DNA of 64,000 nucleotides from NCBI GenBank assembly GCA_016125475.1, contig WGLR01000008.1, forward strand, positions 1 through 64,000, written 5' to 3'. Made by a program: the position numbers and the translations under genes. Position 1 is the stretch's first letter. Each line of letters opens with the position of its first letter. The stretch is from Betaproteobacteria bacterium (GTDB lineage Bacteria > Pseudomonadota > Gammaproteobacteria > Burkholderiales > Ga0077523). The notes under the pieces are model-generated. The model did not search any database, was not told the DNA's origin, and worked only from the letters and a program-made list of their open reading frames with translations. Positions 14,485 to 16,575 of this stretch are shown here, piece after piece.

Positions 14485-16575
14485 ATGTCGCGTCTCAACT
14501 TCAAGGTAGAGCGTCAGGCCACTCGTTCGAAAGCGCGTGCTGCGAGATTCCAGACGCTCCACGGTGAGGTGGAGACACCGGTCTTCATGCCCGTCGGCAC
14601 CCAGGCAACGGTCAAGGGGCTGTCGGTCGACGCCCTCGAGGCAGCGGGTTCTCGCGTGCTCCTGGCCAACACGTACCACCTGCTGCTCCGGCCCGGGCCC
14701 GACGTGTTTCGTGCACTGGGAGGCATCCACCGCCTGATGAACTGGCAGGGTCCGGTGCTGACCGACTCTGGCGGCTTTCAGATCTTTTCACTGCCGACCG
14801 ACCGATCGGTGGACGAGGAGGGAGCGCGCTTCCGCAGCTATGTCGACGGCAGGACGCACCTGCTGTCACCGGAGACCAGCATCGGGATGCAGCGGGCCAT
14901 CGGGAGCGACATCATCATGGCGCTCGATCAGTGCATCCCCTCGACCGCGTCCTGGCCGCAGGCCGAGGCGGCGATGGAACTGACGCACCGCTGGGCGCGG
15001 CGATCGCTCGAGGCGCGCGACGATTCGCCACAGGCCCTGTTCGGAATCGTTCAGGGTGCGTGTCACCCGGAACTGCGGAAGCGGAGTGCCGACTTTCTCT
15101 CGGCATTGCCTTTCGACGGCTTCGCCGTCGGCGGCCTGGCGGTCGGCGAGACCCACGCCGAGCGCTACGAGTTCACCGACCTGGTGACGGACCATCTCCC
15201 CGCGGACCTGCCACGCTACCTCATGGGTGTGGGCACGCCGATCGACATCCTCGAAGCGGTACATCGGGGCGTCGACATGTTCGACTGCATCATTCCGTCG
15301 CAGCTCGCCCATCGCGGGACGGCCTTCACGTCTCACGGCAGGATTCACTGTCGCCGCACCGTCTATCGTCTGTCGGAAGCGCCTCTGGACTCGGCCTGCG
15401 ACTGCCGGACCTGCCGCGAGTATTCCCGTGCCTACCTCTGTCATCTGGTGCGGTCCAACGAGGCCCTCGGGACGCAGCTCCTCTCGATTCACAACCTGAC
15501 CTTCTATCACCGGCTCATGCGGGAAATCCGGGAGAGCATCCTGCGCGACGACTTCGAGACGTTCCGTGTGCGCAAACGCGAAGAACTCGTGCGCCCGGAC
15601 GACGACAACCCCAGCGTCGATCCCGCGAAGGCCAGAGTCAGGCCACCACCGCGGCGGGGTGACTACGAGGTCGTCGCGGGTCCTTCGGGCGCCTTCAGCA
15701 TCCGGCAGATCAGTTCCGGCGAAGTCATGCATCCGGTCGGCGCGCCGGGCGACGAGGCGAACGCGCTGTACGTCGTGCAGTCACGGCTCGCGCAGCGCCT
15801 GCTTCGACGGCCGGGCGATGCGGCGATGACGGGTCCGCACGACCTGGTGATCTGGGATGTCGGGCTCGGCGCAGCGACCAACGCGATGGCGGCGATCACC
15901 TGCTTCGAAGAGGTCCTCCGGCACCACGGCACCCCGGCCTTGCGGCCGACGCGGCTGCTGAGCTTCGAAAATGACCTCGACGCGCTCGTCCTGGCCGCGA
16001 GTAAGTCGGCGTGGTTCCCCCATCTCCGGCACGCTGCCCCTCACGCATTGCTGGAATGCGGCCGCTGGACGCACGCCTCGGGTCTGCTGACCTGGGAACT
16101 GGTCAGGGGAGATTTCATGACCAGCTACGCGTGCGCGGCGGCACCCGATCTGGTCTTCTACGATCCATTCTCCCTGCACACCGACACGGCGCTCTGGAGT
16201 GCCGAGGCATTTTCCCGGGTGGCGGCGCACGGCGGGACGAAGCCGATGGGGCTTTTCACCTATTCGGCGTCGACGGCGGTGCGCGCGGCGCTGCTGTGGG
16301 CGGGCTTCTGGGTCGCGGAAGGCCTGGGGACGGGTCCGAAGGCCACGACGACGATCGCCTTCACGTCCGCGGACGGGGAGCCGCCGGATTGCGGGGGCGA
16401 CCCCGGTTCGATCACCTGGCTGGGCGCAGCCTGGCTGGCACGCTGGCGACGAAGCGATTCGAGGTTCCCGCCCGGCCTCGGCGATGCGGAGAAAGACGCC
16501 TTCTGCCGGCGGATCGAGTCGCACCGCCAATTCGCGATGCGATCGGACGTTTCGATAGGCAGCCGTCCCGGCTAG
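14485..16575 (+). CDS. tgt: tRNA-guanine transglycosylase fused to an MnmC-type (DUF752) methyltransferase
   Basis: This 696-residue fusion protein has a Tgt domain at about residues 1-375. Catalytic Asp94 lies in TDSGGFQIF, Asp148 in MALDQC, Gln190 in GIVQGA, the GGLAVGE substrate loop at 216-222, nucleophile Asp267 in DMFDCI, and zinc ligands Cys305, Cys307, Cys310 and His336. Tgt exchanges the wobble guanine of GUN tRNAs for a queuosine precursor. Residues about 380-696 resemble the SAM-dependent methyltransferase domain of Mnm[13 protein letters not shown] (motif I, about 455-466) and [19 protein letters not shown] (558 on), then [19 protein letters not shown]. Departures from typical Tgt are DEC to DQC, VQGG to VQGA and PTR.AR to PSQLAH. 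No queA or yajC neighbours are present, so it may be a specialised paralogue. ATG 14485 starts the conserved region. Confidence 0.9.

Follow-up and report, generated by a model that had tools for sequence, protein, structure and literature searches.

What could a tRNA-guanine transglycosylase (Tgt) do with a methyltransferase that is part of the same polypeptide and resembles a domain of MnmC, a modification enzyme acting on other wobble bases? This question is raised by a gene at 14485..16575 on the plus strand (the strand of all features described below) of the window, that is, the whole stretch of 64,000 nucleotides analysed here. The frame is open over 696 amino acids, and Pfam domains match both of its halves, such that a full Tgt is indeed joined in a single frame to a DUF752/MnmC-like methyltransferase, as had been proposed from the sequence in an earlier note. 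The gene stands alone, between a MAPEG-family gene upstream and ychF downstream, both on the other strand. The two domains are connected by a variable linker (residues 373-392, 15601..15660), where the pLDDT of the structural model drops below 50 at residues 376-380; the pTM of the full-length model is 0.58, and the relative orientation of the two domains is uncertain. Comparison with four Burkholderiales copies (dS 0.65-0.98) indicates purifying selection on both halves (NG86 dN/dS: Tgt half, 0.10-0.13; methyltransferase half, 0.22-0.32).

There is no clear ribosome-binding site adjoining the ATG at 14485. A strong Shine-Dalgarno-like AAGGAGG is located at 14407-14413, about 70 bases upstream of this ATG; the TTG that comes after it, at 14421, is in a different frame from the fusion gene. 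Searches for promoter and terminator signals between 14200 and 16900 found none. Elsewhere in the window, Rfam identifies one tRNA, and the frame 12431-13066 contains a PEP-CTERM sorting motif (25.2 bits).

The fusion is a real, conserved, and rare family. Scanning of genome contigs led to 195 confirmed stretches, and the best 80 loci were retained; in these, the C-terminal domain is 52-68% identical to that of the window. By record title, most of these 80 loci come from Opitutae/Verrucomicrobia, followed by Deltaproteobacteria and Riflebacteria, along with single Binatia, Spirochaetes, and Sulfopaludibacter MAGs and four Burkholderiales/Betaproteobacteria-type records. In 77 of the 80, both domains are encoded in one frame (L035 is cut at its start by a contig end), and in the remaining three, the parts are in two frames (L045) or the sequence starts, at contig ends, inside the Tgt part (L027) or at the linker (L086). 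Along the full length of the window protein, 76 further loci can be aligned, at 62-77% identity. The single-frame arrangement at 77 loci rules out an artefact of frame joining or assembly; also against a misassembly are three further fusion copies on contigs of 2.4-4.7 Mb. Of 399 genomes surveyed in the window's order, 5 contain the C-terminal domain, namely 4 of the 12 genomes searched from its own genus (its own included) and one genome from another family of the order; the order of the Opitutae carrier G402 has the domain in 11 of 177 genomes. Both counts are lower bounds, the own-order survey having used a profile built from five close copies and scored at most five candidates per genome. 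The five Burkholderiales copies group together (SH-aLRT 99) within the remaining copies in a quick tree of 68 rows, which suggests that they were acquired horizontally. The earlier note had considered that most relatives might carry the same fusion with a known function; the fusion itself is indeed shared by nearly all of the best 80 loci, but the literature matches listed give no function for it.

The Tgt half retains the chemistry of its family. The Tgt domain (residues 16-365, 14530..15579) matches Pfam PF01702 (TGT) with 481 bits (E 2.8e-144), the score against the NCBIfam equivalog TIGR00430 is 459.4 bits, above the cut-off of 306.75, and the predicted fold matches Zymomonas Tgt with a TM score of 0.94 by target. 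We aligned 86 fusions (the window copy, 77 of the best 80 loci, and 8 further copies), and the Zymomonas numbering used here is alignment-based. The catalytic Asp94 (Zymomonas Asp102; 14764..14766), the nucleophile Asp267 (Asp280; 15283..15285), and the four zinc ligands, Cys305, Cys307, and Cys310 (15397..15414) and His336 (15490-15492), all of which had been pointed out in the earlier note, are each present in 86/86 fusions. The base pocket is formed by Asp148-Gln149-Cys150 (14926..14934), where Cys150 corresponds to Zymomonas Cys158 and Gln149 replaces Glu157, and by Ala219-Val220-Gly221-Glu222 (15139..15150), where Val220 and Glu222 correspond to Val233 and Glu235; Cys150, Val220, and Glu222 are constant in all 86. 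According to PMC3660597, Cys158 and Val233 of Zymomonas Tgt determine the preference for preQ1 over queuine, and Glu235 is involved in the preQ1/guanine switch. Given that all three residues are kept, the base pocket is, by its sequence, of the bacterial preQ1 type.

A different picture emerges for the RNA-binding segment that follows the nucleophile (residues 269-278, 15289..15318), which is rewritten in the window copy by the changes Arg286->Gln, Arg289->His, and Asn290->Arg; the unfused Tgt of the same genome has VLPTRNARNG in this place. The two arginines, which we take to be those that read U33-G34-U35 in the Zymomonas Tgt-RNA structure, are both kept in 31/31 of the unfused Tgts compared (30 from 38 fusion genomes plus the one from the window's own genome) but only in 1/86 fusions. 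Arg286 is lost in 85/86 fusions (Gln in 80, Lys in 5) and Arg289 in 82/86 (Gln in 70, His in 9, Lys in 3), whereas the position of Asn290, which is N or H in 31/31 unfused Tgts, is occupied by Arg in 80 and by Phe in 5 of the 86 fusions. Two further replacements separate the fusions from the 31 unfused Tgts, all of which have Glu and Val at these positions: Glu157->Gln (83/86) and Val282->Ile (86/86). The departures from the usual Tgt motifs that had been noticed in this gene (MALDQC, VQGA, PSQLAH) turn out to be signatures of the family, with Gln149 in 83/86, Ala192 in 86/86, and Gln273 in 80/86 fusions. Arg289 is retained in four fusions including L063 (PSRLARQG), the sole one of the 86 with Arg at both changed positions, which is possibly a reversion or an enzyme with a different target. 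Five copies, L150-L154, form a divergent subfamily that is 53-58% identical to the window protein and has NKVAQFG in place of SQLAHRG (5/5), so that the change of the segment persists on both sides of a deep split, albeit with Lys at one position.

The altered segment and the fused methyltransferase occur together, to judge from a search of the two orders with a degenerate DNA pattern for IP[STG]QLA[QH]RG. The pattern matched in 6 of 177 genomes (the Opitutae order) and in 3 of 399 (the window's order), and all nine matches are in genes that also encode the fused domain, at the expected distance upstream of it; the reversed pattern, used as a control, had no match in either set. No unfused Tgt with the altered segment was detected in these 177 and 399 genomes by this exact degenerate pattern, the sensitivity of which is low (it missed 7 of the 16 fusion genomes in these sets).

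The fusion is not the only Tgt of its host. The earlier note had remarked on the absence of queA and yajC next to the gene; neither is next to it in the 64-kb window, because both flank the other tgt, on contig C36 of the same genome (4.88 Mb in 48 contigs, 96.7% complete). This second Tgt (C36:5889-6935; 50% identical) is encoded between frames that read as QueA (confirmed by PF02547; C36:4830-5840) and YajC. The genome also has QueF and, on contig C29, an MnmC with both domains in a frame of 690 aa (Methyltransf_30, 128 bits; DAO, 141 bits). A whole-genome TGT search revealed another Tgt in 38/38 fusion genomes tested, which represent 38 of the best 80 loci; this other Tgt is only partial or in pieces in G404, G411, G415, and G429 and has an internal stop in G426. 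Together with the queA-tgt-yajC order, this rules out that the fusion is an ordinary sole Tgt. Its Tgt half shares 41-51% identity with the 30 unfused Tgts in the comparison, and in the 68-row quick tree, 37 fusion Tgt halves are split from 31 unfused Tgts by one branch (support 100, length 1.08), with the long row L117 adjoining this branch. By these comparisons, the fusion is a paralogue of Tgt as well as of MnmC2, and a specialised one, as the earlier note had surmised for its Tgt half.

Could the fusion nevertheless belong to the queuosine pathway, acting on all or some of the ordinary GUN tRNAs and methylating preQ1 or Q, with the rewritten segment only tuning affinity? The overall fold and the TIGR00430 score are those expected of such an enzyme, both arginines persist in one fusion, and in eight, one of the two is replaced by Lys. 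In addition, 13 Opitutae-type carriers encode an unfused Tgt without two of the zinc cysteines, with LDNYTC or the like where other Tgts have CxCYTC (L110, L112, L115, L116, L118, L119, and L121-L127; one of these rows lacks the third cysteine too), and the unfused Tgt L117 lacks all three. In the wider context of the motif, VEGLDNYTC or the like takes the place of CxCYTC in these proteins. It is thus the fusion that has the full zinc site in these carriers, and the roles of the two Tgts may be divided less simply in the 13 Opitutae genomes and one other. However, all 14 zinc-deficient Tgts keep Arg286 and Arg289, as do all 31 unfused Tgts compared, every fusion genome tested has another Tgt, and the loss of Arg286 is nearly universal among the fusions and extends to the divergent subfamily with NKVAQFG. 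We consider a role in modifying the queuosine tRNAs unlikely. No queuosine operon partner was recognised among the neighbours of 81 loci. Among these loci, there is no conserved gene neighbour that points to any pathway, and few neighbours recur, as judged from partly annotated clusters that were derived from crude ORF calls, many of them antisense frames; the most frequent recognised cluster, an MMR_HSR1-family GTPase (one member checked), occurs at about 15 of the 81 loci.

The methyltransferase half consists of an MnmC2-type domain with a C-terminal extension of its own (residues 393-683, 15661..16533). Methyltransf_30 (PF05430, DUF752) matches residues 513-625 with 39.3 bits, against a Pfam cut-off of 22, and 8/8 further family members that were scanned also exceed the gathering score. 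A profile comparison with five MnmC2 domains yields a probability of 98 over 194 columns, at 25% identity. In a profile search of PDB sequences, Aquifex MnmC2 ranks first (E 9.4e-11), followed by MnmC entries, with a narrower profile giving only 6.5e-4. In the fold comparison of the domain model (pLDDT 87.6), ranks 1-9 are all MnmC2/MnmC chains (5e-13 to 1.2e-10, best TM 0.63), and the next match is spermidine synthase, from 2.4e-6. Thus, Pfam, profile comparison, PDB search, and fold agree on the DUF752/MnmC type that had been proposed for this domain, although the match to the NCBIfam MnmC2 equivalog is weak and does not reach its cut-off (47.3 vs 136 bits).

The putative active site is conserved as well. 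The domain contains an N-terminal module SSGEVMH (15712..15732), with Glu413 (86/86) at the place of MnmC Asp26; a SAM-binding loop DVGLGAATN (15856..15882), identified by profile comparison; Glu495 (15967..15969; 85/86) at the place of Glu101; and Asp560-Pro-Phe562-Ser (16162..16173), with Asp and Phe, at the places of Asp178 and Phe180, in 86/86 fusions. In MnmC, according to PMC3648344, Asp178 is the likely base activating the nm5U amine, the SAM ribose is held by Glu101, Phe180 contacts SAM, and Asp26 is the next polar residue. The C-terminal extension beyond the MnmC2 profile match (residues 640-683, 16402-16533) includes Trp650, Leu651, Trp654, Ser657, and Pro662, all constant in 86/86 fusions, and perhaps binds RNA. 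One might suppose that the DUF752 resemblance is a matter of scaffold only and that the domain methylates a group other than an amine, such as a hydroxyl in the RNA or in a base resembling queuine. The low identity to MnmC2 in the profile alignment would allow for this, as would the surroundings of the catalytic Asp, which read DPF instead of the DGF of MnmC (DFF in the divergent subfamily, where DFFS replaces DPFS). Such an activity seems highly unlikely given that the SAM-binding and amine-activating residues are conserved and that even the weakest of the nine MnmC fold matches is four orders of magnitude better than that of spermidine synthase.

How, then, might the two halves work together? 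PreQ1 is 7-aminomethyl-7-deazaguanine and carries a primary aminomethyl amine. Ordinary Tgt places this base at position 34 of tRNA, and MnmC2 methylates a primary aminomethyl amine on base 34. Because preQ1 and the substrate of MnmC2 share this group, insertion followed by N-methylation is the shortest reading of the fusion. We propose, with a probability of roughly 45%, that the protein is a bifunctional RNA-modifying enzyme that inserts preQ1 at a non-UGU site in RNA and then N-methylates it. The Tgt half would exchange an RNA guanine for preQ1 through the usual covalent intermediate between Asp267 and the ribose, at a site where the flanking nucleotides would not be those of U33-G34-U35 in the four queuosine tRNAs. 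The fused half would then transfer the methyl group of SAM to the primary aminomethyl amine of preQ1, as MnmC does on nm5U34, and the product would be 7-(methylaminomethyl)-7-deazaguanosine, while the other Tgt and, where present, MnmC would keep their own jobs. In this proposal, we infer the base (preQ1), the methyl acceptor (its amine), the order of the steps, the target, and the product; as a first guess, the target would be another G34 tRNA. The conservation of Asp560 and Phe562 in all 86 fusions speaks for this reading. So does the presence of QueA in 37 and of QueF in 28 of the 39 genomes searched (the 38 plus the window's own). Against it, QueF was not found in the other 11, where preQ1 would need to be salvaged, unless the assemblies are incomplete.

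An alternative that dispenses with a joint product is that the fused domain is the hosts' MnmC2 for nm5(s2)U34, carried by a second Tgt that serves for docking on tRNA, such that each half has its own tRNAs to act on. In 34 of the 39 genomes, no DUF752 match above 40 bits other than the fusion was found (two of these genomes have one of 24-26 bits), and MnmM was found in 0/39, with positive controls in Bacillus subtilis and Lactococcus lactis; in these 34 genomes, the methyltransferase half could serve U34, and its MnmC2 active-site residues are conserved. The exceptions, however, include the window's own genome and three other Burkholderiales genomes (G399, G400, and G401, which are G002, G006, and G016 of the own-order survey), all with a two-domain MnmC, and a spirochaete MAG, G418, with a separate DUF752 protein. 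Furthermore, all the catalytic, zinc, and preQ1-pocket residues examined are kept in the Tgt half, which would be superfluous in a mere docking domain, the score against the MnmC2 equivalog is far below its cut-off, and the gene is sporadic in both orders surveyed. We regard this explanation as rather improbable. In G418, which carries the fusion L132, the separate DUF752 protein has a GEHYHS motif close to GEVMHS of the fusion; this genome also contains a third, more distant Tgt-family match (323 bits), and C16:168567-169640 was noted in it.

Alternatively, the target could be DNA, into which preQ1 would be put and then methylated, similar to the methylated dPreQ1 (mdPreQ1) of phages. DpdA proteins are described as Tgt paralogues modifying DNA (PMC6884629), and suitable DNA hairpins as substrates of E. 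coli Tgt (PMC10103133). The Tgt half is, however, clearly an RNA-type bacterial Tgt by its identity to the unfused Tgts and its TIGR00430 score, and among the recurrent neighbour clusters, which were partly annotated, no DNA modification or restriction gene was recognised. Nor was a relative detected in viral contigs by two pattern scans (one fitted to the five Burkholderiales copies and one broader) or in phages by tblastn. A plasmid search returned no fusion and no record with more than 80% coverage; the one plasmid match that was checked is an ordinary tgt beside yajC. Taken together, these searches argue against a viral or plasmid origin of the fusion, and a DNA target appears very improbable. 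Methylated dPreQ1 in phage DNA is reportedly made by the methyltransferase DpdM, which is said to have a fold of its own, and would be a natural precedent for N-methyl-preQ1.

Among known systems, bacterial Tgt (TIGR00430/PF01702) shares with the fusion the fold, the catalytic aspartates, the zinc site, and the preQ1 pocket, from which the fusion differs in being a second copy in the genome, with a C-terminal methyltransferase added, segment 269-278 rewritten, and no queA/yajC context. MnmC2 and the stand-alone DUF752 methyltransferases (PF05430; PDB 3vyw, 3ps9) resemble the C-terminal half in fold and in the equivalents of Asp178, Phe180, and Glu101, but here the partner is Tgt rather than the FAD oxidase MnmC1, the NCBIfam MnmC2 cut-off is not reached, and there is a C-terminal extension. 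Bifunctional MnmC (MnmC2-MnmC1) likewise joins a wobble-base methyltransferase to another wobble-base enzyme; the partner in the fusion is a transglycosylase, so that the base and probably the tRNA differ. The pair of DpdA (PMC6884629) and DpdM also combines a Tgt paralogue with a methyltransferase that would give N-methylated preQ1, whereas here both are parts of one protein, the Tgt is of the RNA type, and the methyltransferase of the MnmC2 type. Neither a Tgt-methyltransferase fusion nor a methylaminomethyl-7-deazaguanine in RNA appeared among the literature matches listed (titles and beginnings of abstracts, with most subscription journals outside the search); as far as searched, the architecture of the enzyme is undescribed.

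The earlier note had suggested, as an example, methylation of a wobble-34 product or action on another nucleic acid, which fits the anatomy described here, and the fusion probably makes a hitherto undescribed RNA modification. More tentatively, we suggest that it could by itself write a new RNA nucleoside, 7-(methylaminomethyl)-7-deazaguanosine, which this second Tgt, with a new RNA specificity, would place outside the four queuosine tRNAs. Given that the fusion passes the NCBI Tgt model far above the cut-off, automatic annotation would probably name it a plain Tgt, leaving it unseen. An enzyme that combines a full preQ1 pocket with a different recognition segment could also be developed into a means of labelling RNA at sites that are not UGU hairpins. 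Bacterial Tgt has been seen as a single enzyme serving four tRNAs; another conserved Tgt that preserves the chemistry but has a changed RNA-binding segment and its own methyltransferase predicts a new nucleoside together with a new target and, if the proposal is true, the product would correspond in RNA to the methylated preQ1 found in phage DNA and, among purines, to mnm5U.
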